From Chitinophagales bacterium (GTDB taxonomy: Bacteria > Bacteroidota > Bacteroidia > Chitinophagales > UBA2359): a DNA stretch of 64,000 nt. The notes under the pieces were generated by a model. That model was not told where the DNA came from, did no database searches, and was given only the letters and a program-made list of their open reading frames with translations. Where the stretch lies: contig JAHDFD010000004.1 of the NCBI GenBank assembly GCA_020628375.1, positions 62,001 through 126,000 on the forward strand, given 5' to 3'. Shown piece by piece: positions 16,001 to 63,968 of this stretch. Made by a program: the position numbers and the translations under genes. The stretch's first letter is position 1; every line of letters begins with the position of its first letter.

Positions 16001-16359
16001 AAATTCAATAAGGGTTCAACAGGCGTTGCCAGATTCGCATCAAAGCTAGTTTGTCTTACCGCATCAGGTCCCTGATGCTCCAATTCCGGTCTTACAATTG
16101 TATTCCTGCCACGACCAACAAAGTCCTTAGGTTCTTTTTTATTTTTTTTCGCTAATTGTTTTTTACTCTTATCAGTAGCGCTACGATCAATTAAATCACG
16201 AATAGCAGGTGTAGTTCCTACCTTTTCTGCATAACTGACTTCTACGTTTGCTTCCAGCTTTTTCTGTGTTTTTACTGAGCCCACTCCCTGAGCTTCAACA
16301 GTATTACCGCTCCATATTACGCAAAGGCACAAAAGGCAAACAGCATAAAATTGTTTCAT
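13021..16359 (-). CDS. Secreted T9SS-sorted protein with CARDB-like and SprB-like repeats
   Basis: A 1112-residue exported protein. It has a signal peptide (residues 1-23, ending VEAQ) and a basic linker with KKNKKEPKDFVGRGRN. A ~450-residue N-terminal region looks beta-propeller-like (for example DPSGDIGRDHYVQAVNA). Two CARDB-like beta-sandwich repeats follow (about 545-760), then a Cys-rich domain with DGICCGVGQGNYSF. Two SprB-type repeats (about 885-1020) carry the phrases YSIDGGQSYQDSPLF and YSIDNGVTFQSSNVF. The C-terminal ~80 residues are a type A T9SS sorting domain (IFPNPTDGVFRINVSG to MLKVFKN). It should be exported by T9SS and anchored or released outside. Its own terminator follows. 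Confidence 0.88.
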   Translation of the reverse strand: MKQFYAVCLLCLCVIWSGNTVEAQGVGSVKTQKKLEANVEVSYAEKVGTTPAIRDLIDRSATDKSKKQLAKKNKKEPKDFVGRGRNTIVRPELEHQGPDAVRQTSFDANLATPVEPLLNFEGLSTGSAPNDPSGDIGRDHYVQAVNATTIGVYDKEGNLLDAFNANTLWGELNLSSAGDPIILYDQSRDKWLITEFPPNNNLLVAVSHTSDPLGEWDVYNFSTPSFPDYPKYGVWNNVISVTTNEGGPGSLPCYLIDKEALMTGAASVPIQRIILPGNNNTEAGFFVATPLDWTGFNEPVDGPTFLVLNDSSWGQVDEDQVEIYSVDVDFDTPSNTSFDVTSVVLSPYDGYPCSAGGAGFFPCVPQQGGGGLDAIPEVIMNQAHYRNFGSHESMVFNFITDVTDGDNLSGIRWVELRRTSGGDWSLRQEGTLALDDGLDRFMGGICMDGAGNIGLAYNVTSPNSYVGVRFTGRRAGDPLGEMTIDEYVVVEGSNTINSGSRFGDYAHMSVDPTNDRTFWYTTEYAGSGGVDTRILAFELRRDTIDIGVASVISPQSADDLTDSETVSFEVENYGLETQESFEVGYIFENGTAVTETVNTAIAPGQTYTHTFTPTVNMDEIKDYEFKFFTALEDDQAYLNDTLRAVISKLPRWDASISVINGLSDVSCGPAKVIDLVLTNYGTQTLNSIVVEVLLNGTSFKTIDWTGELPSGESVNIPLTVTGLNDGGNTIVASCFLPNGNFDENTANDSVLRSFEAIINSVAVFFNLNTDDYPEETTWELTNEQGQVINSGGPYASANSTFVEELCLDADECYTFTIFDTFGDGICCGVGQGNYSFTDALGEELLFSNGNFSTIEENDFCAEFACFLTADFAVTATSEDTSEDGSILVNDENGSDPVQYSIDGGQSYQDSPLFDGLAEGDYEIMVLDANDCTYESTVTIEACKLAYVVDLVNETFTGAEDGSLTINVFAGNEPYVYSIDNGVTFQSSNVFEGLESGEYDIVVEDDLDCSVAEMAALDITSYNGSIATEHFIEIFPNPTDGVFRINVSGLEQSSVFLYLEIYDLTGKRIQRTNLTRYNDTFTGQVSLFDYPSGTYFVRFLNDDIDRMLKVFKN

Positions 16360-36800: not shown

Positions 36801-39800
36801 GGACAATCAGCATCAGGACCAACATTTGAGTTACCAGCTCCAGGATCGTTACAAGTAAAGATCTGTTGCGTGTAAGTACCAACTGTTAAAGTAACTCCGA
36901 TAGTATCGTAATCACCTTCAGCAACTGTTGTAGTTCCAGCGTAGTTGATAGATAAGTTCAATCCATCTAAAGAAGTTAAATCTAATAAGTTAGACGAACC
37001 AGGACCATTAGCAGCATCGTCATCGTAATCGAAGCAAACGCTTACTTGCTGAGCTTGACCAGCTAAACCGTTAGCAGATGTTACGTTACCCATTAACATT
37101 TCAGAACCAACATAATCGCTGAAATCGAAACAGATAGGTGAATCAGTAGAGCACATTTCCGGCTCTGCAAATCCAAATGACCAAGCAGCAGGAGAACAAG
37201 TACCAGCACATGAACCACACTCATCAACAGTTACTTGGTAAGTTGTAGTAGCAGGACAAGTTCCATTTGAGTAAGACAAGTTAACAACTACTTCATAAGT
37301 AGTAGCGGAAGCAACTGCTAAACTTGAAGGATCGAATGTTAAAGTACCATCACCATTATCAACGAATTCAATATCTCCACCTGCAGCAACTTCATAGTTG
37401 TAAGGTAAGTTAGGATCATCAGAATATCCATCTACATTGATATTAATTGCAGCATCGCCATTACAAGCACTATCAGTAAATGAAGGTGCAACTGTAGGAC
37501 ATGGACAAGGCGTACAAGCTGTATCAGCAGTTTGAGTAGCTGATTCACCATTTCCGTCTGTAATAGATACACTGAATAATGTAACACCATCAGCTAATAC
37601 CCAGAAATTAACATCGAATGCAGAACCGTCACCTGGATCCGCAGCAGCAATTAATGCTTCTAATTCAACATCAGTTAATGCTACACCATCCATACCATAA
37701 ACATCACTAATAGCAGTAACATCGTAAGGAGCACCACCTGGAGTAATCGTTAAAGTTTCCTGTGCGATAATCACACCCGGAGCAACTTCCATAGATGTAG
37801 CACAATCACATGGATCAGCTAAGCCTAAAGTTACTGGGTCAGCTGTTGAACAATTATTTACAGTTTCACAGAATGATAAGTTATCTACATAAGCAGCACC
37901 ACCATCATTACCTGGTTGTAAGTATAAAATTAACGCTTGAACTGATTCTGTTCCTACAGGAGCAGCACAACTGGTACTAGCAGTTATAGCAACATCTGTA
38001 GGAGAATTACCATCAAGAATAGTTGCCTCACAAGCTCCAATTTCATTACCACCTGCATCGAAGTATGCAATTTTAATTACTACCCAGTTATCATCTGGCG
38101 CACCAACACCTGATATAGCATCACCGCTTGTATGTAATCCACATGCACTTAATTCGTACTCATTTCCTTCACAAGCAGGGTACTCAAAGAAAGCTCCAGT
38201 AACATCAAATCCACCACTGAAGTTACCGAATAACTTAATCATTCCTTCTGGCTCACCACCAGCAGCGTCAGATGCAAAAGCATTTCCAAAAGTTGTAAAA
38301 TCTGCAATTCCTGCATCGAAGCTTCCATCTACCAATGTGTTAGCACATCCGTTCGGGTTTTCGCAAGTTAATACTGGAGCAGCACATCCAGCACAAGCAG
38401 CCGAAGTAGCTGTTAATGTTGAACATCCTTGAGGATCTGTTATTGTTGCTGAAAAATCTGCATTCAATGCATCTCCATCAGCTACACATGCTTGTGTTTG
38501 TGAATCACAAACTGAACCATCAGATGCCAAAAGATCTACCTGTAATGTTCCACAAGTAGCAGCATCTGGTGTTACATCTGTTGCTACTAATTCTGGATAT
38601 TCAGTATATGTTATAATTTGATTACATGAAACACCATTTTCATCTAACACTGGTGCTATTGTACCATCTACTGGATTAGTTATCTCAAATGCTACAACTG
38701 CTATTTCAAGTGCTGATGCAGAACAACCCCCGAAACCAAATGGAACAAAGTTGATTACATTTGGCACTCCGAATGGTGAGTTTGGTCCTCCGACATTTTC
38801 TCCGAAATAAACTGCATTGGGATCAGCCGCTGGATCAGCTCCTGCGAATGACGCACCATTTGTACCTGCTACTGTACCATCAGAAGACGCATATAAGAAT
38901 AAGTATATTAATTCATTACCACTTGGTGCTAACTCATCTCCGTTTGGATTCGTTATATCAAATGTTCCTGACTCACAATTCTCTAAATTTGAGAATCCAA
39001 AACCTGCCGTACATGCTACAGGTGTACAATCCTCACGAACCACGTCTATAGAATTTGATAACACAAGACAAACATCACTTGTCAAATCAGCAGCATTATC
39101 TCCTTGTGCAGGAGCAACTCCTGAATTAGCATCTGTTAAGTTTCCGTCCCAAGAAATCAACCAAATTGAACAAGTACCAACTGGTGCTCCTTCTAAATCT
39201 GGGCTAAAAGTTGTAGTTCCAGGGCTCACAACACCTGCTGACAAAATCTCACCTGTAGCAGCATCAGTAATCAACCATCCTGTATTTTGACCAGCCTCAC
39301 CTGTCGTTTCAACATCAATTACATCAGCATTACCATCTAAAGCACATACAGTTAATGGATCTGTTGTTGTTGTTAATGTTCCCGCCGCTGCTGTACAAGG
39401 CACTGTACAACCACCACAAGCAGCCGAAGCAGCTGTTAAAGTTGAACATGCTTGAGGATCTGTTACTGTTCCTGAAAAATCTGCATTCAATACATCACCA
39501 TCTGCTACACATGCTTGTGTTTGTGAATCACAAACTGAACCATCAGATGCCAAAAGATCTACCTGTAATGTTCCACACGTGATAGCATCTGCTGTTGCAT
39601 CTGTTGCAGTTAATATAGGGTAAACAGTATAAGTAGTAGAGAAAACTTCACAATCTTCGTAAATAGTTGTAATATAATCACCTACAACAGGATTATCAGG
39701 ATCTGTAAAATCTAAACAGAATACATCTAAACCTGCAACAAAGAATACTTCATAATCAATTGGATCACATGTTGCATTAGGGAATAATGCAGGGTCCAAA

Positions 39801-41140
39801 TCATATCCGGCACAATCACCGAATGCTAACAAGTTTGCTGTAGCAGGATCTGCACCATCAAAAGCGTCGATAGTACCGAAGAATACTAAATCAGCCTCAA
39901 CACACCCAACACCAGCACCTCCGCCGGTTTGAACGAATGGCCCCTCTAAAGCACAAGTTCCATCAAACACAACTGTAGGAATTCCTCCATCACATGTGGC
40001 TGCGATTGAAACTCCTGGGTTTGCCAATACTGCATTACACACAGGACCTACCGGACATCCAGGGTCAGCAACTGCAAAAGGACCAAAAGTACAAACACCA
40101 TCAGCATCAACAACTGTGATATTAGCATCTGTTCCAGCTGTGTATGTAAAAGTAACTGCTCCAGCTGCTGCCTGAGAACCCTCTGCAGAACCTGCATCAT
40201 CCAAAGTAACAGAAGCATCTGTTCCCGTTACTGTTACTTCAACAGTGTAAGAACCATCAGGGTTACAAACAGGAGCTCCAGCTTGTACATCTGTAATTTC
40301 ACATGCCGCACAAGCAACTAAACAATCAACTGTTACAACATCTGCAATAGCTCCATTTACACAACCGCCAGCGGCAGCCTCTGTAATTGTATAAGCAGTC
40401 CCATCAGAACCTGTTCCAATAGCGAAAGTTGAAAAGTCATAAGTTAGATCACCATCCACATCCACTAAATCAGGGCAAGCATTTTCTGTACCTGCTGTTC
40501 CCAAAACCTGATCACATTGAGTACCATTAACTTCTAATGTTGCACTTCCTGTTGTTGCGCCATCGCAACCTGGAGGAACGATAACTACATCATAAGTAGG
40601 AAAAACAACCAATGGAGGTAACTGACTGTTCAATGTAGGCAATAAATCTAAACTAATGATTGGGAATGGACTAATTGTTCCTGTATTAATATCACAACCT
40701 TCCTCATCAATTGCTAAAGGTTGAGATAATAACAAATCATAACCTAAAGTACATCCACCTGCAGGTGTAATTGCATTAATAGCCAACTGTGTTTCTGTAA
40801 TATCACAAGTTGCTGCAGGAGGCGTAGTTATCTCAATACAAACCTGATCACCTGCTGCATTTGGCACCAAGGCAACCGTTTCTCCCAAAGGAGGAGTCAA
40901 AGTATAATCAACTACAATGGTAGCTGGGTCACCCGCTCCATTCCAGTCTAAACAAAGTAACTGTGTTGTACCACCCAAACACAAACCTGGAGCAATTCCA
41001 GCCAGTGTTGCGTCGGTAACACAGACAGATGGACATGCCGCATCACACCCTGCAGGCGCAGCACATTGTCCAAACAAAGTACTCATACCTAGGCTGCAAC
41101 AACAGACTAACATGAGCATGAAGGATAACAACTTCTTCAT
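30842..41140 (-). CDS. Giant Cys-rich, acidic T9SS-exported protein
   Basis: A 3432-residue exported protein. It has a signal peptide (MKKLLSFMLMLVCCCSLG to about residue 25, ending FGQ), a very long region of Ig/SprB-like beta modules, and a C-terminal type A T9SS sorting domain (VSPVPASDYINVLIDMPG to TTKFIVK). The LTWTTATEHDNDFFTLERS domain common before such tails precedes it. The body is rich in Asp, Ala, Thr, Gly and Cys and poor in Lys; repeated phrases are VCEGD, TVDxCG and YSFDGG. Two ~67-residue modules with CGTLQVDLLASDGSVCDSQ are nearly identical. It is probably a cell-surface adhesin or filament. ATG 41140 replaces a longer frame without a signal peptide at its start. Confidence 0.88.
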   Translation of the reverse strand: MKKLLSFMLMLVCCCSLGMSTLFGQCAAPAGCDAACPSVCVTDATLAGIAPGLCLGGTTQLLCLDWNGAGDPATIVVDYTLTPPLGETVALVPNAAGDQVCIEITTPPAATCDITETQLAINAITPAGGCTLGYDLLLSQPLAIDEEGCDINTGTISPFPIISLDLLPTLNSQLPPLVVFPTYDVVIVPPGCDGATTGSATLEVNGTQCDQVLGTAGTENACPDLVDVDGDLTYDFSTFAIGTGSDGTAYTITEAAAGGCVNGAIADVVTVDCLVACAACEITDVQAGAPVCNPDGSYTVEVTVTGTDASVTLDDAGSAEGSQAAAGAVTFTYTAGTDANITVVDADGVCTFGPFAVADPGCPVGPVCNAVLANPGVSIAATCDGGIPTVVFDGTCALEGPFVQTGGGAGVGCVEADLVFFGTIDAFDGADPATANLLAFGDCAGYDLDPALFPNATCDPIDYEVFFVAGLDVFCLDFTDPDNPVVGDYITTIYEDCEVFSTTYTVYPILTATDATADAITCGTLQVDLLASDGSVCDSQTQACVADGDVLNADFSGTVTDPQACSTLTAASAACGGCTVPCTAAAGTLTTTTDPLTVCALDGNADVIDVETTGEAGQNTGWLITDAATGEILSAGVVSPGTTTFSPDLEGAPVGTCSIWLISWDGNLTDANSGVAPAQGDNAADLTSDVCLVLSNSIDVVREDCTPVACTAGFGFSNLENCESGTFDITNPNGDELAPSGNELIYLFLYASSDGTVAGTNGASFAGADPAADPNAVYFGENVGGPNSPFGVPNVINFVPFGFGGCSASALEIAVVAFEITNPVDGTIAPVLDENGVSCNQIITYTEYPELVATDVTPDAATCGTLQVDLLASDGSVCDSQTQACVADGDALNADFSATITDPQGCSTLTATSAACAGCAAPVLTCENPNGCANTLVDGSFDAGIADFTTFGNAFASDAAGGEPEGMIKLFGNFSGGFDVTGAFFEYPACEGNEYELSACGLHTSGDAISGVGAPDDNWVVIKIAYFDAGGNEIGACEATILDGNSPTDVAITASTSCAAPVGTESVQALILYLQPGNDGGAAYVDNLSFCETVNNCSTADPVTLGLADPCDCATSMEVAPGVIIAQETLTITPGGAPYDVTAISDVYGMDGVALTDVELEALIAAADPGDGSAFDVNFWVLADGVTLFSVSITDGNGESATQTADTACTPCPCPTVAPSFTDSACNGDAAININVDGYSDDPNLPYNYEVAAGGDIEFVDNGDGTLTFDPSSLAVASATTYEVVVNLSYSNGTCPATTTYQVTVDECGSCAGTCSPAAWSFGFAEPEMCSTDSPICFDFSDYVGSEMLMGNVTSANGLAGQAQQVSVCFDYDDDAANGPGSSNLLDLTSLDGLNLSINYAGTTTVAEGDYDTIGVTLTVGTYTQQIFTCNDPGAGNSNVGPDADCPDNDHFTNIAFSADVADLAANIPTNTDCSDCPAGDPICVNYYLQSNSLDWTISLNADMSFQYNNLSAGVDDPFAGNLNDEAPDFSNLPSAAFSVDVLTGEYCVNPIFTLDADEDTDGDGAIDWPGGVTYDLADYDEVQICFTGGSCKEQYAPCADSADGCGTVCTETQCQTILFLETVYCDLDANGGFACGDEDYDLEQLFTDATTQGGNFSVDGADATLNGNYVDVSELTFTDGVASILVTYSRTEGNKCDSFQGAECTTTLTIYEPISVESWNAPSVVCEDAAMIALPAPGAWSGAGVSDDGAGNYSFSPMGLGGQIATLTWEASNNLCGFSESYAVNVESSFDVTIGNNPSGAVCLDAVQSLGVVDFNAFLTGETSGAGYWSYSYEGADPVAFGSVLDLGANAAVGNWTFTYTIPGNGNCGSADSFSISVDTGCTEGLTLTDSVICADASGTFDLTPYLDFALEGDVAAEASILTGVCDNVVFPAPPALGGDLPYGSDDVTVCPVAPGEGTLSIAIPSVPSYGVINTFDITFSYFGTRDGADGDLDTISLFFGAQEIFAFDNAEINAFFGSADNHFGEITISFVPQFGADGYPESYTAFAGEGTFNSEDIVLGADAFDVCNLDDAISYYLYSNSAYWDAELSVAATWYAQIEEIFGAANLHETGTELPLGANPCGGFSIATLEDGSPALPVQVLFTSEGCGEYDEVDINLEVNCTCNDDYACLATGSATIVFLETYASTLKDMELCMPQPEVDLTQLFDGADQGGTFTSDLGTVMGDILMPAGPGAYNITYCINAESACNDAAEDGCSTAVLTINDARFTALASACTGVTAGDIVTANVDGGSWTANGGAIDPTTVIDAAGTYTIEYTVGGCTESAEVVVYDSVDPIPAIDDVTVCEGDVVDLNALLPEGVVANWTGFNVINGSFYSSALGGFVFQFDGMVGTEECGQSTSVMVTVDAAPDASFTVPSVLCNDDAAINLADYATTGGSFAVNGEAATEFVPADNPGVNTITYSVSAGSCTNAETATITVLGSDPVKFEVVDGEYTRCLDADGAFELSLDGDADGIGTWIINCAIDGALDNASIDGAAGAFTFNYDIGVVNQHGVVPYTITYDMPGSCSNSFTQTVTIYDIPANNNAFEGMEICEGEEIPTIEGITGGAIDSYYITDADGNVIYESANVFFDNEMSWTPESLGVGETTFNLYIENQYGCSSDAAVISYTVNALPTLTWDFGCTDPVADENGNYAAALVFDASMVSGDYVITIADSEGNETTGGMNDALFVINAGEVYSASVTDGNGCTSAAIEGIRAEYAVEFATSVDACSEDGFVTVTVEVDENTGYGSPYSYSFDGGLSFGAENVATLPVAANPTISILVRDDKGCLSAFDIIEVGTVSEFIPTAGCADADGNVTVDFNYVGADYTAVVSVGGVDVATLPEGTDYVVNVTDAADVTITVTANSGDVSCSATGTVTVYPAVVTEASSPVCEGDDVAFVTSGGNGVYDLTIYPFGGEEGINIGAVGGTQLIGELPAGAHTYTIVSGGCSADGAFEILPAAGEVTLVYDSSFDSALTVCGDDDLTVTVTGGSVYEWTDDAGNTLAETGNTITIPVTSATGTYTVQAVDNGCPGEPYEITPIYNEALSTTDPAYTCNEDGTATVSFVVNGGLATESQVLVNGVLVDRAVTVQLGLGESQTLTISSNGSSCDPITVDIENTCEPTPEPSGCAPLLVTPLGADCAEGFVTVQIAGVGGEFTVTGVVGNATLVGEPFIQEGEVGTADLTFQVDENLLAQFTILFDTDCGSYEQPISIDCSNPTAIELIEFDGTARENGNLLTWTTATEHDNDFFTLERSTDGVNFTAVVAKVEGAGNSNVPTSYEVLDTEAPEGTSFYRLLATDIEGVTVIAADVIDVTRRAEGTIAVSPVPASDYINVLIDMPGDVELNVYDVTGQLVEVIYANGDEVRIELGGYASGNYFLTANNGLEMITTKFIVK
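38481..38554. repeat. Internal duplication in the giant gene, copy 1
   Basis: 74 bp identical to 39504-39577, inside a ~200-bp near-duplicate that encodes the SDGSVCDSQTQACVADGD module. It points to recent tandem or segmental duplication or gene conversion within the gene. Confidence 0.9.
39504..39577. repeat. Internal duplication in the giant gene, copy 2
   Basis: 74 bp identical to 38481-38554; the copies are 1023 bp apart, a multiple of three, so the frame is kept. Confidence 0.9.
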
Positions 41141-41242
41141 AGTTTCTTTTTTAGTTAAAAAATTTGTTTTGATAATTAAAAATTTATTGTTAACGTAATA
41201 GATAATTTTCAATAGTTTATAGCTTGCCCTATAAAGAACATG

Positions 41243-41272
41243 CAAATGTATGAAATACCTTGCTACCTGCAA
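41243..41272 (-). promoter_or_regulatory. Bacteroidota promoter of the giant gene
   Basis: On the minus strand TTG (41272-41270), a 19-nt spacer and TACATTTG (41250-41243) match TTG-N17-23-TANNTTTG in full. Transcription would leave a ~95-nt leader before ATG 41140. Confidence 0.7.
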
Positions 41273-52513: not shown

Positions 52514-53176
52514 TTACTCTCCAATTTTAATGATCTTACTGCCACATAATGCTAACCACAAAAGGCAAGCCATTAACAATCCAAAGCCCATAAAATCGAT
52601 CAATAAATGTAGTCTATTCACAATGGTTATAGCAAAATCGCCTTCAAATCCTGCCTGAAAACGTTCATAATAAGTAGCATATTTGGTTCCTAAAGAAAAC
52701 CAGAACTTTGTTGCGACAAGTAAGGAGAGAACAATTATTCCAATGATGGAAGCAATTAGTTTTCTTTTTATTGAAACGGGTGTAACAATGAGTAATGCCA
52801 AATAAAAGGAAAGGATTATCCCCAGTAAATTCCAGCTACTATCGGCATATTGTATAGGGGTTATCTGCGCCTGACTTAAGCCTTGTTTTTTAGCTTTTTC
52901 AATGGCAATTTGCTTTTGTTTTTCACTTTTAAGAGTAACTAGCACATCGAAGCCTCTGTACTCTTCCAAACGCGGTCCTTTTCGTTCTTCATCGACAATT
53001 TGACGAAACTTTACTTCACCACCATTATAATAAGTGCTATTAAAAGTATTTCCTATACCGCACACATAAGCAGACAAGGCATGCTTAAGTGGTGTAAATT
53101 GAAAAAGAGCAGTAAAAGCAAGATATACCACAAAGAAAGCACCTGCTCTTAGTAGAAGCGTATTATTGCTATTCAT
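52514..53176 (-). CDS. Exosortase-associated membrane protein (probable XrtH partner)
   Basis: A 220-residue protein with four predicted membrane helices: about 9-28, 115-135, 139-160 and 188-212. A ~75-residue periplasmic segment after TM1 contains YNGGEVKFRQIVDEERKGPR. Its start overlaps the end of the exosortase gene by 8 nt, so the two are made together. Partner membrane proteins are commonly found directly after XrtH-type exosortases; that, not a catalytic motif, is the basis of the call. It may help recognise or position the sorted substrate. Confidence 0.72.
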   Translation of the reverse strand: MNSNNTLLLRAGAFFVVYLAFTALFQFTPLKHALSAYVCGIGNTFNSTYYNGGEVKFRQIVDEERKGPRLEEYRGFDVLVTLKSEKQKQIAIEKAKKQGLSQAQITPIQYADSSWNLLGIILSFYLALLIVTPVSIKRKLIASIIGIIVLSLLVATKFWFSLGTKYATYYERFQAGFEGDFAITIVNRLHLLIDFMGFGLLMACLLWLALCGSKIIKIGE

Positions 53177-53774
53177 GGGTTAATTTTTGTTTGTTTGTCC
53201 AGCCAATCCAGTAAAAGAGTGCTAATAAGGTCAATCCGATAAACAATACCTGCCAAACGCTGACGTGCATAAACTCGAATAAGTCGGGGGCATGCGCTTT
53301 AAATAAATACAAACTTATTATTCTGAATAAATTCAGTAAGACAAGAAATAAAGTTCCGAACAACAAACCTTTCATTTTATTATTCCAACTTGTTGGGAAG
53401 ATAAGCACAGCTGTATAAAAAATAGCAAGCCCTTCAATTCCATCACAACCATTCTGAATATTGATAGAAAAATTGCGCTCACTTAAAGAATTGCCAATTG
53501 CTTTTACAGGATAACCAAAAACTTTAAGGATCAAACCGCTAGCTTGGGCATATAAAGTTGATACGGGTGCAACTATATAATCCTGAAATATTCCACTTGG
53601 CCAGATCAAATAAAAGACCAATATGATCAATAAAAACTGTATTAATAAACGATTGGTTTGATTAGTCCAAATTGTAGAAAATGAAAAACCTTTTTTTTGC
53701 TGTTTTTGTCTTTCAGCTTCTCGTGCTTTTTGTTTTTCAAGTTTCCTTTGTTCTTTTTTGTTCTTCTTCGCCAC
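53169..53774 (-). CDS. Exosortase family protein, XrtH-like
   Basis: A 201-residue membrane cysteine protease-transpeptidase. A charged Lys/Glu/Gln-rich N terminus (1-30) precedes about five to six helices. The catalytic triad is C110 in NGCDGIEG, R151 in LNLFRI and H170 in FEFMHVSVWQ, all in the expected exosortase/archaeosortase positions. NGC-x-G-x-E fits XrtH, the type tied to IPTLxxWG-CTERM sorting signals. Two proteins with VPTMGEWG motifs are encoded nearby, which supports the pairing. The start codon is GTG at 53774. It overlaps the partner membrane protein gene by 8 nt. Confidence 0.87.
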   Translation of the reverse strand: MAKKNKKEQRKLEKQKAREAERQKQQKKGFSFSTIWTNQTNRLLIQFLLIILVFYLIWPSGIFQDYIVAPVSTLYAQASGLILKVFGYPVKAIGNSLSERNFSINIQNGCDGIEGLAIFYTAVLIFPTSWNNKMKGLLFGTLFLVLLNLFRIISLYLFKAHAPDLFEFMHVSVWQVLFIGLTLLALFYWIGWTNKQKLTHE

Positions 53775-53976: not shown

Positions 53977-55635
53977 TTACTTGTTATTAGCAAGCACCAA
54001 TAGGTGTACTAAGTAAGTAAAGATCGGTGCTGCAATAGCACATCCAATTACATCAACAGTAGTAAAGAAACCGTAGAATGTCAAAGCATATACTGAAGTA
54101 AAAGCTAATAAGATTACCGTTAGCATAGCTGCTTGTATAAATATTGCTTTGTTAAACGGATAAGCGTTTACATTTCTCCAATCGAAACGAACTGAGCTTC
54201 CATTAGCTAACTGTGTTTGACCTGCTACTGAATATAACATAGTAAAGTTCAAGGTTAATAAGGCTAAGATAATTAATCCCCATTCGCCCATAGTTGGCAC
54301 ATCGTCTCCTACTGGAGGCTCAACATCACAAGGATCACATGAACCACCGCAATCAACACCCGTTTCATCGCCGTTCATCATGCCGTCATCACAAGTTGGT
54401 GTTGGCTCGGTATCACAAGGATCACATGAACCACCACAATCAACGCCCGTTTCATCGCCATTCATCATACCATCATCACAAGTTGGATCTATTGGTGAAA
54501 TTGGTGTTCCTGCGCATGAACAGTCATCAAGAATAATATCATTTTCTGTATTTGCATCCAAATCATCACAAGGTTCTCCAACTGTCACACCTGCATCGGC
54601 ACATGGATCAGAATTATCACCACAAGATGGAACTGAACCATCGTCTGGTGCAGGGTTTGAAGCACTCTGGAAAGGAGAAGCATCACCAATTGTTAAGGTA
54701 GGAATACTTTCTGTATCTGGACCTGTTAAGCTACAGTTTGGAGAGCTGAACTCTATTACCCATTCGACGCCTAATACTCTGAATACTAATTCACCATCAA
54801 CATCAGTAGCCGGATCTCCTGAAATGTAAGATAATCTATTACTTCCCCAAGTTACTTCCCAGGTTATATCTGGATTTACGCCTAACCATGAAACCGTTAA
54901 TAATAATTCTTCTTCACCCTGATCGTTAATTATAGAGCAGTAAGAAAAATTACAAAGCTCTATTCCATCACAAGCAAAATGGGCATCCTGACAAGTAGAG
55001 CTTACTGCTGCAATAACTTCGGCAGGTGCTACAGTAGTATTATCAAGTGAATCATCTCCATCATTTTCGTCAGCTATTTCCAAACCAGAAACCAACCAAT
55101 TCGAAGCATCTTCAAAAATACCATCATTATTTGAACTACTTCCGCCATTCGGACAACGACCATCTTTACTTTTTGCCCATCCATCGTTAAACTCCCAATT
55201 TGCTCCACTTCCTGAATCGTTTGAGCCAAACTGATCCTGAACGTTTCCTAAGCAAGAAAGAACGAAATTATCTCTACCGTCATTACTAACACTAGAGTCG
55301 TAGAAATCGGCTGCAAAACCATAATAAGCAACAAAATCGGCTGCATCTTCTTCATCTTGTCCTATCCAAAAACAATCGCCAGCCGAACCAGACAGGGCAG
55401 GAAAAGAAACTTCCGGACCTACTAATTCGTCGGTAGCAACTACCTGACTAACAATATTCAATGAATAAATACTCATGTCTGCAACATCACCTGTTAAACA
55501 AACCTGAATTGCATCAGCATCTACGTCTGGTGCATCTACAATTGTAGCAATGATCATTTTGCCACAATCATTACATTGTGCTCCCAAAACAAAAGGGATA
55601 CAGGAAAGCATAAAAGCATAAAAAATTCTCTTCAT
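53977..55635 (-). CDS. Secreted PTMGEWG-CTERM protein with extended membrane tail, copy 1
   Basis: A 552-residue exported protein with a signal peptide (MKRIFYAFMLSCIPFVLGAQ). The N-terminal part resembles lamin-tail/endonuclease-type surface domains (VCLTGDVADMSIYSLNI; FGSNDSGSGANWEFNDGWAK). A DLDANTENDIILDDCSCAG segment and two 29-residue Cys-rich repeats (CDDGMMNGDETGVDCGGSC) follow. The sorting motif VPTMGEWG is at about 446-453, then helix LIILALLTLNFTML. Unlike normal CTERMs it does not end soon after: ~85 more residues add two helices (about 499-525 and 528-549). ATG 55635 replaces a longer frame lacking a leading signal peptide. It is a probable XrtH substrate. Confidence 0.85.
   Translation of the reverse strand: MKRIFYAFMLSCIPFVLGAQCNDCGKMIIATIVDAPDVDADAIQVCLTGDVADMSIYSLNIVSQVVATDELVGPEVSFPALSGSAGDCFWIGQDEEDAADFVAYYGFAADFYDSSVSNDGRDNFVLSCLGNVQDQFGSNDSGSGANWEFNDGWAKSKDGRCPNGGSSSNNDGIFEDASNWLVSGLEIADENDGDDSLDNTTVAPAEVIAAVSSTCQDAHFACDGIELCNFSYCSIINDQGEEELLLTVSWLGVNPDITWEVTWGSNRLSYISGDPATDVDGELVFRVLGVEWVIEFSSPNCSLTGPDTESIPTLTIGDASPFQSASNPAPDDGSVPSCGDNSDPCADAGVTVGEPCDDLDANTENDIILDDCSCAGTPISPIDPTCDDGMMNGDETGVDCGGSCDPCDTEPTPTCDDGMMNGDETGVDCGGSCDPCDVEPPVGDDVPTMGEWGLIILALLTLNFTMLYSVAGQTQLANGSSVRFDWRNVNAYPFNKAIFIQAAMLTVILLAFTSVYALTFYGFFTTVDVIGCAIAAPIFTYLVHLLVLANNK
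54326..54486. repeat. Two 87-bp Cys-rich repeats in CTERM gene 1
   Basis: 74-bp units at 54326-54399 and 54413-54486 with an 87-bp period, encoding CDDGMMNGDETGVDCGGSC. The same pair is present in the second CTERM gene at 59267-59427. Confidence 0.88.
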
Positions 55636-55893: not shown

Positions 55894-57378
55894 ATGAAAA
55901 GTAAAGACACGCTATTTACCCTAGTTCATTCTATGTCAAAGAGTGAAAAACGACATTTCAAACTACGGTTTTCCGGAACCAAGAAAAGTAGTCATATAAA
56001 ATTATTCGATGCCCTTTCAGCTCAGGAAAAATATGATGAAGGCCAATTGAAAAGAAAATTTAAAGATGAAAAGTTTATAAAGCACTTACCAGTCATAAAA
56101 AACCAACTTCAGGAAAAAATACTAACAAGCTTAAATGAACAGCATAGCGATAAAGACTTAGGCTTGTTCATTCACAATAAGTTGAATCATGCGAGTATAT
56201 TGTATCAAAGAGGCTTATACGAGCAGGCTCGTAAACAAGTTAGTAAGATCAAGGAACTCATTATTGAACATGAGTTTTATGAATTCTCTTATTTACTATT
56301 TCGTAAGCAAGCTATTTTCTGGCAGCAAGAACAATTTATCAATACAAGTTTAGAAGAGATAAAAGCCTTTGAACTTTTTTCTTCTGAAGGCTTACAAAGT
56401 ACCATGCAGGAAATAGAAATGCTTTCTGCTATGCAACGTTTTAATAAGTTAGCTAAAACCATTGGTTTTGTAAAAAGTGATTCAGATAGTTCAGCTTATC
56501 ATCAAATATTGAATGAATCTATTTTTCAATCTGAAGAAATACTTGACTCAAGTAAAACCAGGTATAATTATCATTTTGTACTAAGTGCTTTTTATTTACT
56601 GCATAAAAATGAAAAAAAGTGTATTGACCATAGTTTGAAAGCTTTAGAGATCACTAAAGAAAAAGCCCAAAAGAATGAACGTTATATTAATGCCTATATC
56701 GGCTCATTAGCAAATACAATTTCCTATTTAATTACTTTCAGACAATATCGTTACTATAAATTCTTTAAAGAACAGCTTGAAAAATTAAAAGCGATGATCA
56801 ATAATGCCAACTTATTTGGTGTTAAACAACGCTTTGAAACGCTGAAATTAGCTGAATTGCAATATGTACTTTTGTCTGATGAAAGAAATGCAACGATTAA
56901 AACCAGCTCTTTAATTCTTGAATTGGAAACTATTGATAATACCTCAAAGAGTTTAAGCACAACTAGTGTTTTGTACTATGTTGCTTACGGCAAATTCAAA
57001 TTAAAAAAATACAGGGCTTGCCTTGAATCGCTGGATTTGTTAAATCAAAAAACCATTGGAAAAACTAATTCTCTTTATACTTCAGCTATATTACTAAGGA
57101 TTATTTGTCATTTATCAATGCGGGATTTTGAGTACATGGAAGCGCTTTTACGTAATTCAAAAAGAGCATTAGAAAAAAATAACACTTATGGAATTCATGA
57201 AAAACAATTTTTCCGATTTGTTAAAAAACTGGTACGATTTCAGAATAATAAAGACAAATTGGAACAGGCTTATCAAGACTATTTAGAATATTTAGCTAGT
57301 TTAGCAGTTTTGGAATGGAATGCAAATATCTATTTCAATTTTGAAGCCTGGCTCAGATCATTACAAAAGAACAGTTAG
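55894..57378 (+). CDS. Paralogous alpha-helical protein A, unknown family
   Basis: A 494-residue soluble protein, apparently all helical. The N-terminal signature is TLVHSMSKSEKRHFK (9-23), then IKLFDALSAQEKYDEGQLKRKF and KHLPVIKNQLQEKIL. The middle has TPR-like helical pairs (ILYQRGLYEQARKQ). The C terminus has YMEALLRNSKRALEKN and ends in YFNFEAWLRSLQ. No signal peptide, so it is probably cytoplasmic. Three homologues lie in this window (57382, 60516, 62472). I do not know the function; a scaffold or sensor role in an alpha-solenoid is an inference. The next paralogue starts 3 bp after its stop. Confidence 0.8.
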   Translation: MKSKDTLFTLVHSMSKSEKRHFKLRFSGTKKSSHIKLFDALSAQEKYDEGQLKRKFKDEKFIKHLPVIKNQLQEKILTSLNEQHSDKDLGLFIHNKLNHASILYQRGLYEQARKQVSKIKELIIEHEFYEFSYLLFRKQAIFWQQEQFINTSLEEIKAFELFSSEGLQSTMQEIEMLSAMQRFNKLAKTIGFVKSDSDSSAYHQILNESIFQSEEILDSSKTRYNYHFVLSAFYLLHKNEKKCIDHSLKALEITKEKAQKNERYINAYIGSLANTISYLITFRQYRYYKFFKEQLEKLKAMINNANLFGVKQRFETLKLAELQYVLLSDERNATIKTSSLILELETIDNTSKSLSTTSVLYYVAYGKFKLKKYRACLESLDLLNQKTIGKTNSLYTSAILLRIICHLSMRDFEYMEALLRNSKRALEKNNTYGIHEKQFFRFVKKLVRFQNNKDKLEQAYQDYLEYLASLAVLEWNANIYFNFEAWLRSLQKNS

Positions 57379-57381
57379 ATT

Positions 57382-58851
57382 ATGAAAAGCAATGATGCAT
57401 TACATGTACTCATCCATTCGATGAGTAAAAGTGAAAAAAGGCATTTTAAGATTTATCAGGGTAGTGGTAAGAAAAGTAATTATATAAAATTATTCGATGC
57501 TATTGATAAACAGGAAGAATACAATGAAGATCAACTGAAAGTAAAATTCAAAAATGAAAAATTCGTCAAACATATCCATGTAATAAAAAATCAACTAGGC
57601 GAAAAAATTCTGACTTCACTCCGCGAATTCCATCGAGAAAAGAACCCCAATCAACTTATATTGGATAAAATCGCTGATGCTGATATACTTTATCAGCGCG
57701 GTTTGTATGATATGTCGTTCAAATATCTCGAAAAAGCCCGTGAGCTTATAGAAGAACACGAAAGTTACGGTTTGTTCATTAATTATTATTCGGCTAAAGT
57801 ATTACTATGGCAAAAAGAAGGCATGCTTAAGACTTCTGAAGAAGAGTTGAATCATATCTCTGAAGAGGCAAGTGATTTTCTTGATTATCAGCAAAGTCAT
57901 ATCGATATGCTGAAAGTTAGTCAACTGCTGAATAAAAAAGCAAAAACGGTGGGCTACCCACGTAATGAGAAAGAGCGAAAAGTATTTGAAGATATTATGT
58001 CAGCAACGATCATGACCGACATCTCGAAAGTAAAAACAACAAAAGCAAAGTTTAACTTTTATACTAATTATTCCTTCTTCTATTTACTAACGGGACAGAA
58101 GGAGCTATGTCTCGAAAATAATTTGAAAGCCATTGAGGCAATTGAACAGAAAGCATTAAGTAATAATAGCTTTGTACTTGATTATATCAGAGGTCTTTCT
58201 AATCTTTTGTATTTGACCATTACCTTTAAAGATTTCGATTATTATAAATCTATTAAGGAGAAACTAAAAAATGTAACGACCATAGCTTCTCACGATAGTT
58301 CTACCAAAAAGTTAGGCGATTTAAAACTGATCGAGCTGCAATATCTGACCTTAACGAATAGTGAGATCGAAACTTCCAGAATACAAGAGTTAATCAATGA
58401 ATTGGAGGAATGGATTCAGAAAACAGAAATTACACCCAATGACAAAACAACCATGACCTATTATGTGGCTGTGGCTTATTTTATGCTTAAAGAACATGAT
58501 ACTTGCTTAGATAAGCTTTATCCACTTATAGACAATCAAAAAGGTAAGATTAACCCTTTATTTTTATCTGTGTATCTGCTTGTTTTACTATGTCATTATG
58601 AATTGAAAAATTACGAGTACTTAAACTCATTACTTCGAAACACAAAACGTACACTACTCAATCAAAATTTATACGGAAGCTTTGAAACTGAAGTATTCAA
58701 TTATATCAGAAAAGGCTGTATGTATGATAAAGATCCTAAGAAAATGAAGAAATATAAGCAGGCTTTACTTAAACAGATTCAGGAAACCCCAAAAGAAGAA
58801 GCCTCTGCATTATTCTACTTCAACTACGAAAGATGGCTGAACGAAAGCTAA
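57382..58851 (+). CDS. Paralogous alpha-helical protein B, unknown family
   Basis: A 489-residue homologue of protein A, with the same opening (VLIHSMSKSEKRHFKI), IKLFDAIDKQEEYNEDQLKVKF, ILYQRGLYDMSFKYLEKARELI and an ending YFNYERWLNES. It starts 3 bp after gene A's stop, so A and B form an operon. No catalytic motif, signal peptide or membrane helix is visible. The C-terminal half contains YLNSLLRNTKRTLL, matching the RNSKRAL block of A and D. Confidence 0.8.
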   Translation: MKSNDALHVLIHSMSKSEKRHFKIYQGSGKKSNYIKLFDAIDKQEEYNEDQLKVKFKNEKFVKHIHVIKNQLGEKILTSLREFHREKNPNQLILDKIADADILYQRGLYDMSFKYLEKARELIEEHESYGLFINYYSAKVLLWQKEGMLKTSEEELNHISEEASDFLDYQQSHIDMLKVSQLLNKKAKTVGYPRNEKERKVFEDIMSATIMTDISKVKTTKAKFNFYTNYSFFYLLTGQKELCLENNLKAIEAIEQKALSNNSFVLDYIRGLSNLLYLTITFKDFDYYKSIKEKLKNVTTIASHDSSTKKLGDLKLIELQYLTLTNSEIETSRIQELINELEEWIQKTEITPNDKTTMTYYVAVAYFMLKEHDTCLDKLYPLIDNQKGKINPLFLSVYLLVLLCHYELKNYEYLNSLLRNTKRTLLNQNLYGSFETEVFNYIRKGCMYDKDPKKMKKYKQALLKQIQETPKEEASALFYFNYERWLNES

Positions 58852-58865
58852 TAACAAAAAAGCCC

Positions 58866-58882
58866 CTGTACTAAAAGTACAG
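58866..58882 (-). terminator. Weak hairpin between convergent genes
   Basis: A 7-bp stem (CTGTACT/AGTACAG) with an AAA loop. On the minus strand GGGGCTTTTTTG follows, so it probably ends the second CTERM gene, 30 bp past its stop. Confidence 0.6.
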
Positions 58883-58911
58883 ATACCAATTTTGTAAAGA
58901 GTAAGTAATAA

Positions 58912-60303
58912 TTACTGCTCTTTCTGATTCAGTAAAACAATTAAGTGAATCATATAAGTAAAGATCGGAGCCGCTATAGCGCACCCAACAACATCTACAA
59001 CAGTTAAGAAACCATAGAATGCTAAGGCATAAATTGTAGTAAATGCTAACAATACAGCCGTTAACATTGCAGCATGTACAAATATTTCTTTATTGAACGG
59101 ATAAGCATTTACATTTTTCCATTCGAAACGAACTGTACTTCCATTAGCTAATTGAGTTTGACCTGCTACTGAATATAACATAGTAAAGTTCAAGGTTAAT
59201 AAAGCAAGAATAATCAATCCCCATTCGCCCATAGTTGGTACATCATCACCAACTGGAGGCTCTACATCACAAGGATCACAAGATCCACCACAATCAATGC
59301 CTGTTTCATCGCCATTCATCATACCATCATCACAAGTTGGCGTTGGCTCAGTTTCACATGGTTCACAAGAACCTCCACAATCAACGCCTGTCTCATCACC
59401 GTTCATCATGCCATCATCACAGGTTGGATCTACCGGAGAAATTGGTGTTCCTGAACATACACAAGCAGTGTATATATCATTTTCTGTATTGTCATCTCCA
59501 TCATCACAGGTTGTTCCATCGGCAATTGCTCCTACAGAAGCATCGCTATCATCACAATCTAGATCTGCACAAACACCATCAGCATCTGCATCTCCGCCTG
59601 CATTAGCACATGGGTCAGCAACTGGCTCGCCACATGGTTCCGGAGCATTATAAACAGGCGAAATTCCACTTTCATCTGTAACAGCAATGTTGTCTAAAGA
59701 AATTTGCTCTGACCCGGCATTATTCAGCACACAAATTTGTAATTGGAAAGTTGAGCTTGCCGCAATAGAACCAGTTACAGTCGCAGGAATCAAACTTGAA
59801 GTTGACCAATCTCCGGCATCTGGCAAATCACCTACTAAAGTATGAACACCATCACTGAATTCACCTCCGGTAAGGGTTGAAGCAACACCATCGGCAATTA
59901 AGTTTATATCTACGAAATCTTCAGGCTCAAGATCTCCACTTTCAATAACATCTACTGAAATAGAAATTGTTGTAGCACCACCGAGTGTTAATATTGGCGT
60001 ATTAAAGCATAAAATTGCTTCAGCATCCTGAAATTCAAGTACACCTGAAGACTGTGTTTCAGCATTATCTCCAGAAGCTGTTAAAGTCGTAATGTCTCCT
60101 GCTGCAGATAAAAACCAACCATCGCCTGCTTGTGGACTGTATGTACCACAAGCAGTTATATCATCGGTATCGCATGGACCTGCTAATTCAGCAGCGTCGC
60201 AAGTATCGAAGTCGGTAAAATCTTCAGAAAAAATGACTGTCTGAGCATTTACATTAAAGCACATTAAAAAACATGCAAAGAAAAGTGCGGGGAAATTTTT
60301 CAT
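58912..60303 (-). CDS. Secreted PTMGEWG-CTERM protein with extended membrane tail, copy 2
   Basis: A 463-residue exported protein with a signal peptide (residues 1-20, ending VNAQ). The N-terminal domain (about 22-215) looks like a carbohydrate-binding or jelly-roll module (FSEDFTDFDTCDAAEL; STFQLQICVLNNAGSEQISL). Ca2+-type DxD repeats (GGDADADGVCADLDCDDSD) and the two 29-residue Cys-rich repeats follow. The motif VPTMGEWG (about 355-362) and the 107-residue C-terminal module are about 88 of 107 identical to those of the 53977 gene, by eye count. The N-terminal domains are unrelated, so only the sorting module is shared. It is a probable XrtH substrate. Confidence 0.85.
   Translation of the reverse strand: MKNFPALFFACFLMCFNVNAQTVIFSEDFTDFDTCDAAELAGPCDTDDITACGTYSPQAGDGWFLSAAGDITTLTASGDNAETQSSGVLEFQDAEAILCFNTPILTLGGATTISISVDVIESGDLEPEDFVDINLIADGVASTLTGGEFSDGVHTLVGDLPDAGDWSTSSLIPATVTGSIAASSTFQLQICVLNNAGSEQISLDNIAVTDESGISPVYNAPEPCGEPVADPCANAGGDADADGVCADLDCDDSDASVGAIADGTTCDDGDDNTENDIYTACVCSGTPISPVDPTCDDGMMNGDETGVDCGGSCEPCETEPTPTCDDGMMNGDETGIDCGGSCDPCDVEPPVGDDVPTMGEWGLIILALLTLNFTMLYSVAGQTQLANGSTVRFEWKNVNAYPFNKEIFVHAAMLTAVLLAFTTIYALAFYGFLTVVDVVGCAIAAPIFTYMIHLIVLLNQKEQ
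59267..59427. repeat. Two 87-bp Cys-rich repeats in CTERM gene 2
   Basis: 74-bp units at 59267-59340 and 59354-59427 with the same 87-bp period as 54326-54486. The duplication therefore predates or accompanied the copying of the whole C-terminal module. Confidence 0.88.
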
Positions 60304-60515
60304 AATTTTCGATTAAATATTTATTTAGTTTTATTTTAATTTGTAATCTATCTGATTATGTGTTAATTAAGGGTAGTTTATCAAATTTTACAAATTTCTA
60401 ATTGGCAGTGAATAAAATGAAATACAATTATCATGTAACATTATAGTTTACGACTATTTCAACAGCACTTAATTTATTAAAAATCAATTAGTTACACTAA
60501 AAAATATTATAATAT

Positions 60516-62018
60516 ATGAGTCGGAAGCGGTTTTTATACGATTTAATCCATTCTTTGAACAATACAGAACTACGCTTTTGCAAAAAATACATTCAGGCTT
60601 TTGAAGCTAAAAGCAGTGATTTTATTTTATTATTAGAAGCCATTTTAAAACAAAAATCGTTCGATGAAAAAACGCTGAAAACAGCACTGAAAAAACACAG
60701 CTTCATTAAGCATTTTCCCGTTTATAAAAACTTACTTTTTAATTCCATTTTGAAAGCACTTCGTATCTATTATCAAGAAGAAATTGATATAGATAAGCTT
60801 TTTATTTTAGAAAAAAATTATAGAATATTAAAGAACAGAGGCTTACCAGCAATAGCCAATATCCAATTGGATAAAGCAATACATTTATCAGATGAAGTGG
60901 AAGCCTTAATTAATAAAATAAGGTTAGGACAATGGCAAAACAACAGACTCTCTAATCTTGAAATTTACAGAGATGACAAAGCCGCCAATAATAATTTTGT
61001 TGACATTCCGGCACTTTGCGATCAATTAAAATATTATTATGTATTTGAATCCTTAGCAAAAAAAATTGATAAGATCATTCTGAAAAGCAGTATGCGCAAA
61101 GCAGAAGATATTGAACAATTAAATACGCTTTTACACTCTGAACCACTAACAATCAATGTGAACCTTCTAAGTGTTAGGACTCGCGTATTTTATTATCATT
61201 CCAGGGCTTCCTGTTTTCTTGGATTAAAACAATATACCGCTTTTACCGAAGCCAATATGGCACTATACGATCTTTTCGATGAATACCCTAAAATATTGGA
61301 TACCGAACCATTTGCTAAAATTATAACTTACAGAAATCTTATCTGGGGCTTGCTTAGAACACGAGAGCAACTAGAAGATATTGATCCTTACATAGAAAAA
61401 TATAAGAAATTTATTGACAGCTTCAAAGGCAAAAAAAGAAGTGCTATTCAATATGAGCGTCGAATGCTCGATTGTACTTTTGGTTTTCAGTTAAACTTCT
61501 ATTTATATAGAAAAGAATACCGCTCAGCCTTTGAGTATGCGAAAAAATTGAATGAAGCGGTAAATAAGAAAGCTGATAAGCTCTCTCTTTATCACACCAT
61601 AAATTATAAATATGAAATAGCCTACACTTTTTGGTGTAATGGTTTACTAAAAGAAGCCCAACAAGCACTTATGGTACTACTAAATGAAGAAAATCTAAAT
61701 ATCAGGAATGATGTTTTTGCTTTTACTCATTTGTTGAATGCTTTAATAGAATATGAGCATAAGAATTTCGAGTTACTTGGTTATCAATTAACCAATCTTA
61801 AGTTAAAGCTTAAGCGCCGAGATTACTTTTATTCTTTTGAAAAAGCGATTATAGAAATGCTCTCCAAATTGGTTAAACAGCCAAATAAGAAAAATGCAAT
61901 TAAAATCTTTGAACAGTATGAAAAAATATTTTCAGATCTAAATAAATTCGATACAGAAACAGAAGCGTTTGAAAGGTTAAACATTATGTGGTGGATCAGG
62001 AAACAGTTAAAATCTTAA
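60516..62018 (+). CDS. Paralogous alpha-helical protein C, divergent member
   Basis: A 500-residue homologue of A, B and D, but the most divergent. The opening DLIHSLNNTELRFCKKYI replaces the HSMSKSEKRxFK signature, and KHFPVYKNLLFNSILKAL corresponds to the KHxxVxKxQLxEKI block. It ends with LNIMWWIRKQLKS instead of YFNFExWL. It is all helical, has no signal peptide, and its function is unknown. It is separated from B by the convergent CTERM gene 2, suggesting that the CTERM gene was inserted into, or the family expanded around, the array. Confidence 0.75.
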   Translation: MSRKRFLYDLIHSLNNTELRFCKKYIQAFEAKSSDFILLLEAILKQKSFDEKTLKTALKKHSFIKHFPVYKNLLFNSILKALRIYYQEEIDIDKLFILEKNYRILKNRGLPAIANIQLDKAIHLSDEVEALINKIRLGQWQNNRLSNLEIYRDDKAANNNFVDIPALCDQLKYYYVFESLAKKIDKIILKSSMRKAEDIEQLNTLLHSEPLTINVNLLSVRTRVFYYHSRASCFLGLKQYTAFTEANMALYDLFDEYPKILDTEPFAKIITYRNLIWGLLRTREQLEDIDPYIEKYKKFIDSFKGKKRSAIQYERRMLDCTFGFQLNFYLYRKEYRSAFEYAKKLNEAVNKKADKLSLYHTINYKYEIAYTFWCNGLLKEAQQALMVLLNEENLNIRNDVFAFTHLLNALIEYEHKNFELLGYQLTNLKLKLKRRDYFYSFEKAIIEMLSKLVKQPNKKNAIKIFEQYEKIFSDLNKFDTETEAFERLNIMWWIRKQLKS

Positions 62019-62471
62019 GGTCAATTTCAAGTAGTCAGAAAAAATTTCTTAATAGTTCTTTTGAATATTATTCGCCAAAGAAATCTTTCAATAAAATAAT
62101 AGCATTTATTACGAATGAATTTCTACACCAACTTGATTGAACCAAAAAAAGCCTTCACTTTTACGCAAAGACTTTCTAGGTTTACCAATAGGGGTAGATT
62201 GGAGTGAAACAGAAAGTGCAATAAATTTAGGAGTAATAAATAAGGTTTGTTAACTTTGACTTTTTAAAGTCTTTATAGAAAACGTACTCTACTGCAAATT
62301 GAGTAGAGCACGTCGAATTAATCAGTTACTATTACAAAGGAAATTAATCTCTTCCTATTCATTTTTACTTATTTCACGGAATTATTAAAATTCCAACTAA
62401 AAAAATATGCCGCAATTTACTGAATATCAATATTTTACAACAAATTTAATTTTATAATTTCTTTATAGAAT
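62019..62471. other. Intergenic region with a dispersed element
   Basis: 453 bp with no gene. The element at 62029-62072 matches 17073-17118, and an AATTTCTACAC shared downstream word is at 62118. A weak in-frame stretch near 62170-62250 (GLPIGVDWSETESAINLG) has no start and is short, so I see no gene. Confidence 0.5.
62029..62072. repeat. Dispersed element shared with 17073-17118, copy 2
   Basis: AAGTAGTC, poly-A, then TTTCTTAATAGTTCTTTTGA and ATATT, differing from copy 1 by one substitution and a one-base indel. It lies 10 bp after the stop of gene C. Confidence 0.6.
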
Positions 62472-63968
62472 ATGGCGGATAAAGATGTGGTACATGGCTT
62501 GATTCATTCGATGTCGAAGAATGAAAAACGCTACTTCAAGATAAAACACCTGACGAATAAAAGGAGTAACTTCTCGAAGTTATTCTCAGCCTTATCTCTG
62601 CAAAAAGAATATGATGAAAAAGCCCTGAAGAAAAAATTTCGCAACGAAAATTTCCTCAAACATCTGAGTGTTACCAAGCTCCAATTACAAGAAAAAATAT
62701 TGCTCTCGCTAAGTGAATTCCATAGCGATAAGCAATTCAATATGAAGATCATTCAGAAAATGAATGATGCGACCACCCTATTTCAAAGAGGCTTTTATGA
62801 ACAGGCTCACAAATATCTGGAAAGGGCAAAAGAGCTTATCATTGAGTATGAGTCTTATGATCTGTTGATTACTTACATGCGAAAAATATGTACTTTCTGG
62901 CAACAGGAACTTTTCGCTAATATCAGTAATAATGATATTATTGAAATGGAGCAATTTGTTCTTTCAAAACTTGTAAACATTGAACATGAAGTTAAGCTTC
63001 TCTCAAGTATGCAGCGCCTTAATCGTTTATCAAAAACAAAAGGGTATGTAAATAAAGATGAAGACATAGCTGCTTATGATCTGGTTTTCAAAGATGCTGT
63101 TTTACAAGATGCAAATCAGCTGAAAACAACCAAGAATAAATTCAATTTTTATTTTATAAAAAGCCTTTATCACTACGTACTCAAAAACGAAGATGAATGT
63201 ATTCAAAATAGTTTGGATGTGTTATCGGTTATTAGTAGTAAAGCTGAAACAAACAGCTATTTTATTGGTGCATATATGCGCGCCTTGTCCAATTTGGTTA
63301 CCTATTTATTATCATTCAGAAAATTCAAGCATTACGACGCTTTCAAACTAGAAATAGAAAAAGCTAAAGGAATTATAAGTGAAGCTAACTTAACGAGTGC
63401 TGATAATTTTATTGACTTCATTAATATTGCAGAGTTGAAGTATTTATTATTAAGTGATTCTGAGGGGAATAATGCTACTGATAACGATATTGAACAATTG
63501 ATAGACCTACTGAGTAATATCGATGAAAAAACAAATACTATAAATACTCAAAGTGCGCTCTTTTACATTGCCAGTGCAAAATTCTATTTAAAACAATTCG
63601 ATGAAAGTTTGCAATTTATTGAAAAACTAACCCAAAGTAATGGATCAAATACATCTTCCTTTCACACAATTGCTACTATTTTAAAAATTATATGCCATTT
63701 TGAACTTAAGAATTACCAGTATATGGCTGCATTACTAAGGAATTCGAAAAGAGCTTTAAGTAAACGTGATCTTTACCATGAAAACGAAGTGCACTTTTTT
63801 CAGCTGATCAGAGATTTGATTCGTTATCAACTTGATTCAGATAAACGAAATGAAACTATTCAGCAATATCTAATACGTCTGAATGCACCTGAAAATTCTG
63901 ACTGGTCTGCCAGATTATATTTCAATTTTGAAAATTGGCTGAATGCTAAAATGTTGCAAAAGGTATAA
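62472..63968 (+). CDS. Paralogous alpha-helical protein D, unknown family
   Basis: A 498-residue homologue of A and B. It has GLIHSMSKNEKRYFKIK near the start, LFSALSLQKEYDEKALKKKF, LFQRGFYEQAHKYLERAKELI, YMAALLRNSKRALSKR and an ending YFNFENWLNAK. It is cytoplasmic by appearance, with no known motif. It is closer to A than to C by eye. The stop is just before the window edge, so further paralogues may continue to the right. Confidence 0.8.
   Translation: MADKDVVHGLIHSMSKNEKRYFKIKHLTNKRSNFSKLFSALSLQKEYDEKALKKKFRNENFLKHLSVTKLQLQEKILLSLSEFHSDKQFNMKIIQKMNDATTLFQRGFYEQAHKYLERAKELIIEYESYDLLITYMRKICTFWQQELFANISNNDIIEMEQFVLSKLVNIEHEVKLLSSMQRLNRLSKTKGYVNKDEDIAAYDLVFKDAVLQDANQLKTTKNKFNFYFIKSLYHYVLKNEDECIQNSLDVLSVISSKAETNSYFIGAYMRALSNLVTYLLSFRKFKHYDAFKLEIEKAKGIISEANLTSADNFIDFINIAELKYLLLSDSEGNNATDNDIEQLIDLLSNIDEKTNTINTQSALFYIASAKFYLKQFDESLQFIEKLTQSNGSNTSSFHTIATILKIICHFELKNYQYMAALLRNSKRALSKRDLYHENEVHFFQLIRDLIRYQLDSDKRNETIQQYLIRLNAPENSDWSARLYFNFENWLNAKMLQKV

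Follow-up and report, generated by a model that had tools for sequence, protein, structure and literature searches.

To our knowledge, it is an open question how exosortases choose substrates and which further factors the reaction requires. The closest described system to the one reported here is the IPTL-CTERM sorting signal with its exosortase H, XrtH (TIGR04174 and TIGR04177; Pfam PF18203), in which the known tails stop after a motif, one helix and basic residues. PEP-CTERM/EpsH and other tripartite signals such as MYXO-CTERM likewise combine a periplasmic-face motif with a helix, are attributed to an inferred cysteine-protease-like enzyme with Cys, Arg and His, and end in a basic cytoplasmic cluster; the accessible portions of these reports describe no two-helix companion, fused or separate (PMC1569441; PMC11980579). 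A sorting signal can also lie away from the C terminus. The archaeosortase A substrate HVO_0405 has a central signal that is cleaved and arose by gene fusion (PMC7157517). The named family closest to a mid-protein XrtH signal is NCBIfam NF033207, "midcut-by-XrtH protein", whose model has an XrtH motif mid-sequence (positions ~37-44 of 175) with a long region after it. Here we analyse a 64,000-nucleotide stretch of a Chitinophagales genome (assembly GCA_020628375.1, contig JAHDFD010000004.1, positions 62,001 to 126,000; hereafter the window) that encodes two exported proteins, copy 1 and copy 2, with extended IPTL-CTERM tails. The tail is a standard XrtH sorting signal, motif and helix 1, fused to a two-helix module of ~60 residues that forms its end and that we name 2TM. 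Motif, first helix and cognate exosortase are those of the IPTL-CTERM system, and xrtH lies in the same operon-like cluster; unlike known tails, however, a conserved two-helix module is added, and other genomes encode this module separately beside xrtH. IPTL-CTERM and XrtH are already known, and 2TM is probably a new component.

In both copies, VPTMGEWG leads into a hydrophobic helix and, past a short linker, two further helices at the C terminus; the motif-to-stop distances are 107 amino acids in copy 1 (99 residues beyond VPTMGEWG) and 109 in copy 2. They exceed the TIGR04174 IPTL_CTERM cut-off of 20.5 bits (22.4 and 22.6 bits, respectively). In an AlphaFold2 model, the copy 1 tail forms a single post-motif helix and a tight two-helix hairpin (mean predicted local distance difference test score, pLDDT, 79; ~87-95 in helices 2 and 3). 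Sequence, family match and model thus bear out an earlier note on this DNA, which had seen a sorting motif and helix followed by two extra helices in place of a normal CTERM end. The note's "soluble linker" is present, but it has only ~18 residues and would be cytoplasmic by the positive-inside rule. An alignment of 22 free and fused modules has invariant Gly, Asp, Gly, Tyr and His. The loop joining helices 2 and 3 contains nearly no Lys or Arg and a mean of 1.3 acidic residues, and the linker ahead of helix 2 is basic; by the same rule, the hairpin loop with the invariant Asp would face the periplasm. The PEP-type motif and the exosortase triad are believed to be on that same side (PMC1569441). 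Lys plus Arg after helix 1 average 2.8 in short tails versus 0.9 in long ones, indicating that the basic anchor is relaxed where 2TM follows. Copy 1 starts with MKRIFYAFMLSCIPFVLGAQ, probably a signal peptide.

Neither Pfam nor NCBIfam gives a match above cut-off for 2TM, free or fused, and PHROGs gives nothing significant. The literature searched yielded nothing on 2TM, midcut-by-XrtH or "exosortase H", and IPTL-CTERM came up in one paper. Membership in NF033207 was considered and rejected: against its 175-position model with a cut-off of 45 bits, the tails of the window's genome score 13-24 bits over positions 7-56 only. All long tails tested, relatives included, fall far below 45 bits, with the alignment confined to the motif and first helix (up to ~76), and by score against that model the 2TM module does not match its C-terminal part. 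The likeness to HVO_0405 (PMC7157517), whose signal is cleaved, is that of a sorting signal away from the C terminus; 2TM differs in being a conserved module on nearly all substrates and apparently a part of the sorting system itself.

The earlier note had reported two copies of the tail. Both are real, but the tail is not peculiar to them, as the window's genome holds 16 complete copies. Searching independently with the IPTL-CTERM model recovers the same 16 places, plus a 17th match of 11.7 bits in a 22-residue frame that is noise; 15 of the 16 are above the TIGR04174 cut-off. None ends in basic residues and a stop after one helix, the distance from motif to stop being 103-115 residues rather than 31-41, and the same search found no short-tailed version in this genome, which is 69% complete. 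Two tail subfamilies can be distinguished, PT[MV]GEWG...YPFNK (4 copies) and [IV]PTLSxWG (12 copies). The ratio of nonsynonymous to synonymous substitution rates (dN/dS) between tail paralogs is ~0.04-0.3, and the tail is under purifying selection. A stop-codon read-through, or a chance fusion to an unrelated membrane protein, was named in the earlier note as the outcome that would undo its proposal. We consider it extremely improbable and reject it, given 16 of 16 intact copies without internal stops, the selection on them, and homologues of the module in three phyla. Three fused copies also occur in a relative of the window's genus (G468), and loci elsewhere share the gene order.

Tail length separates into two classes. 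Over all loci fetched, a non-random set made up of 77 loci from a scan of genome contigs and others added later, 60 distinct tails have at most 45 residues, 69 have 95-125, and none lies in between. The note had proposed measuring the distance from motif to C terminus, and the two separate clusters agree with its idea of a distinct class of sorting tail. The long tails of relatives measure 102-118 residues from motif to stop. They occur in metagenome-assembled genomes of Chitinophagales and Saprospiraceae, in a single Zixibacteria genome and in Phaeodactylibacter luteus, which is cultured; many Planctomycetota are limited to short tails. A phylum-wide even sample (296 genomes) contained the tail in the window's own genome only, and sampling was therefore done at the level of the order and by locus. 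One fused tail (L043:4764-5336) has an altered sorting motif, VPTKFQW, lacking WG. Plasmid sequences gave no match, and viral contigs gave two short motif matches only. The 126.5-kb viral contig IMGVR_UViG_3300027498_000003 (L278:2599-3135) encodes a 178-residue protein with a short IPTL-CTERM tail.

In Planctomycetota, the last ~60 residues of the long tail match a separate small open reading frame of ~65-80 codons directly after a short CTERM gene. Many Saprospiraceae likewise encode 2TM as a separate gene. Free and fused 2TM form one family, as conserved residues are common to both in the alignment and in profile searches. The gene order is CTERM-2TM-xrtH-partner where 2TM is free, and CTERM+2TM-xrtH-partner in the window and other fused loci, the partner being a membrane protein gene considered below. 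Loci with a free 2TM flanked by a short-tailed CTERM gene and xrtH occur in Planctomycetota (L063, L089, L148, L251-253) and in Saprospiraceae (L205-208, L213, L214, L225, L272, L274). The CTERM stop codon overlaps the 2TM start in L206 and the gap is 9 nucleotides in L274, so that fusion needs little change. The extra part that the earlier note had taken for a tail is indeed a fusion, but it is not merely a tail, as other lineages encode the module separately at the XrtH locus and the fusion partner is therefore related. In three Saprospiraceae loci (L207, L208, L213) a terminator-like hairpin with a T-run separates the short CTERM gene from the free 2TM gene, which suggests separate transcription of the two. 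Two further copies are possibly decaying: a 2TM frame interrupted by a stop, downstream of a CTERM gene (L077:3782-4108, genome G331), and a fused CTERM with a weak 2TM adjoining an XrtH frame that holds a TAA (L233, genome G420).

Genomes with a free 2TM usually have one copy for 5-43 CTERMs (one for 26, 17, 14, 12, 43 and 22 in G322, G323, G324, G325, G326 and G330). Fused genomes mostly have about one module per CTERM: 16/16 in the window's genome (G000), 8/8 in G311, 9/9 in G312, 3/3 in G310 and 4/4 in G314. A few (G299, G317, G329) are mixed. These copy-number patterns suggest that 2TM works in trans as well as in cis. When two genes are joined in some genomes but apart in others, their products are classically taken to interact directly. 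We lean, if only slightly, towards 2TM being an XrtH accessory that docks the substrate at the enzyme, whether in trans as a separate small protein or in cis from within each substrate. Whether 2TM is more specifically a previously unrecognised exosortase H subunit that presents substrates, with each fused substrate bringing its docking subunit and leaving it in the membrane when cut, we regard as an even call. A free 2TM, normally one per genome, would then serve many short-tailed substrates; in the window's lineage nearly every substrate has its own in cis. The signal peptide would export the protein and helix 1 would halt it in the inner membrane. The hairpin would set its acidic loop and invariant Asp in the periplasm, close to the motif and to where the XrtH active site is expected. 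Once 2TM had docked the substrate, XrtH would cut at the motif and pass the protein body to an acceptor, and a three-helix remnant would be left in the membrane, a retention that the earlier note had suggested and that we find plausible. A conserved component that is both fused to substrates and free beside the enzyme is a defined candidate for the study of exosortase sorting. It seems unlikely to us that 2TM instead acts after cleavage, with the remnant or the free protein as a regulator or carrier, for example for XrtH turnover or the acceptor molecule. Such a role fits the single free copy facing many substrates, as expected of a system component, and in the Zixibacteria genome, where one fused copy adjoins XrtH and the ratio of CTERMs to fused modules is 3:1, the tail could serve others in trans; however, it leaves unexplained why nearly every substrate in fused genomes has its own copy.

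The co-occurrence of 2TM with XrtH was determined in two even samples totalling 644 genomes. In the window's order (396 genomes), 2TM was found in 37 and an XrtH match in 53; in the Phycisphaerae-class sample around L063 (248 genomes), the numbers were 19 and 30. All 37 and all 19 2TM genomes are XrtH-positive, 56 of 56 together (Fisher 9e-40 and 4e-21, p-values that ignore shared ancestry). The association is well supported. Sixteen genomes of the order sample are XrtH-positive and 2TM-negative. Eleven of them score weakly for XrtH (below 58 bits) and may represent other exosortases. Among the five with strong XrtH, a divergent 2TM does lie next to xrtH in two (G496, G629), which means that some absences are misses.

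These co-occurrence data also bear on a different function, in which the tail is a permanent inner-membrane anchor whose hairpin keeps the proteins polytopic and which XrtH never cuts. Three helices would hold more firmly than one, and the reduced basic cluster after helix 1 is in line with this. Yet the XrtH motif is strictly kept, the module is a separate protein in short-tail genomes, every module-bearing genome sampled has an XrtH match, and the centrally placed signal of HVO_0405 is cleaved (PMC7157517). We therefore find a permanent anchor quite improbable.

Several observations weigh against the docking reading. In many Planctomycetota the free 2TM gene is unlinked to xrtH. XrtH occurs without a 2TM match in G320, G321, G327 and G333 of a chosen set of 39 genomes and in 11 of the 30 XrtH-positive genomes in the class sample; 2TM is therefore neither universal nor an absolute requirement. 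The 2TM tail has no fold match in the PDB. Two further results count in favour of the docking reading, each with a reservation, as do the gene order, the co-occurrence, the copy numbers and the acidic hairpin loop with its basic flanks. Distances between 2TM modules correlate with those between XrtH proteins (r 0.60, permutation p 5e-4; r 0.53 for fused loci alone), but those of the motif and helix 1 do so about equally well, and correlated divergence also follows from shared history. In a tree of 112 modules, which rests on ~62 columns and whose deep order is uncertain, the distribution of free and fused forms requires four changes of state, of which well-supported branches force at least two, and the Zixibacteria fused copy is placed among planctomycete free ones.

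The window's XrtH scores 81.5 bits against TIGR04177, just under the cut-off of 86, and is above the cut-off of Pfam Exosortase_EpsH; homologues at L063, L060 and L093 pass the TIGR04177 cut-off. The catalytic residues are in place, Cys110, Arg151 and His170 being invariant among 16 aligned XrtH. Sequence searches of the PDB returned nothing significant, and in particular no solved exosortase relative. The window's genome has two further XrtH-like genes. The third of the set (G000:C35:73028-73480; L269:4984-5541) has no partner gene, CTERM gene or 2TM inside ~5 kb. In the XrtH tree it clusters with relatives' XrtH including that of L030, where the neighbouring CTERM belongs to the IPTLSEWG type, and it may serve the 12 proteins of that type.

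The partner gene directly follows xrtH in most loci examined, and the partner could form one complex with XrtH. This would suit a 2TM that binds the partner (the P0003 family) rather than XrtH, and the earlier note had likewise suggested that the tail may interact with the membrane protein encoded at 52514. However, XrtH loci lacking 2TM (L093, L094, L087, L174) have the partner downstream all the same, so it goes with XrtH, no particular tie to the tail is seen, and the tail's genomic partner is XrtH. Binding to the partner in place of XrtH is in our estimation rather improbable. The partner has no Pfam or NCBIfam family above cut-off and nothing significant in PHROGs. Its high-confidence model (pLDDT 93) shows a membrane protein that includes a small domain containing strands; a PDB fold search with the partner gave nothing significant. 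Some of its homologues have faint similarity to exosortase Y.

Table 1. Tail-bearing genes, their parts and the neighbouring sorting genes (positions in the window).
Feature	Position	Strand	Remarks
Copy 1, 552-residue exported protein ending in extended IPTL-CTERM tail	53977..55635	minus	likely start ATG 55635
XrtH recognition motif VPTMGEWG of copy 1, residues 446-453	54277..54300	minus	TIGR04174 22.4 bits, cut-off 20.5
Helix 1 of copy 1 (ordinary CTERM helix)	54205..54291	minus	AlphaFold2 helix 11-39 in 114-residue model
Fused 2TM module of copy 1 (YPFNK...LLVLANNK), two-helix hairpin	53980..54162	minus	homologous to free-standing 2TM protein of other genomes
Copy 2, 463-residue exported protein with extended IPTL-CTERM tail	58912..60303	minus	tail 82% identical to copy 1 tail
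Fused 2TM module of copy 2	58915..59103	minus	
Exosortase XrtH	53169..53774	minus	directly downstream of copy 1; TIGR04177 and Pfam Exosortase_EpsH
XrtH-associated partner membrane protein	52514..53176	minus	start overlaps xrtH end

Elsewhere in the window, four paralogous proteins of ~490-500 residues are encoded on the plus strand at 55894-63968, interleaved with both CTERM genes, and their first residues are like MKSKDTLFTLVHSMSKSEKRHFK. They have no Pfam family above cut-off, and one gives a weak TPR signal. At 13021-16359 and 30842-41272, C-terminal regions resemble, as judged by eye, type IX secretion sorting domains, and two surface-sorting routes may therefore coexist in this genome.
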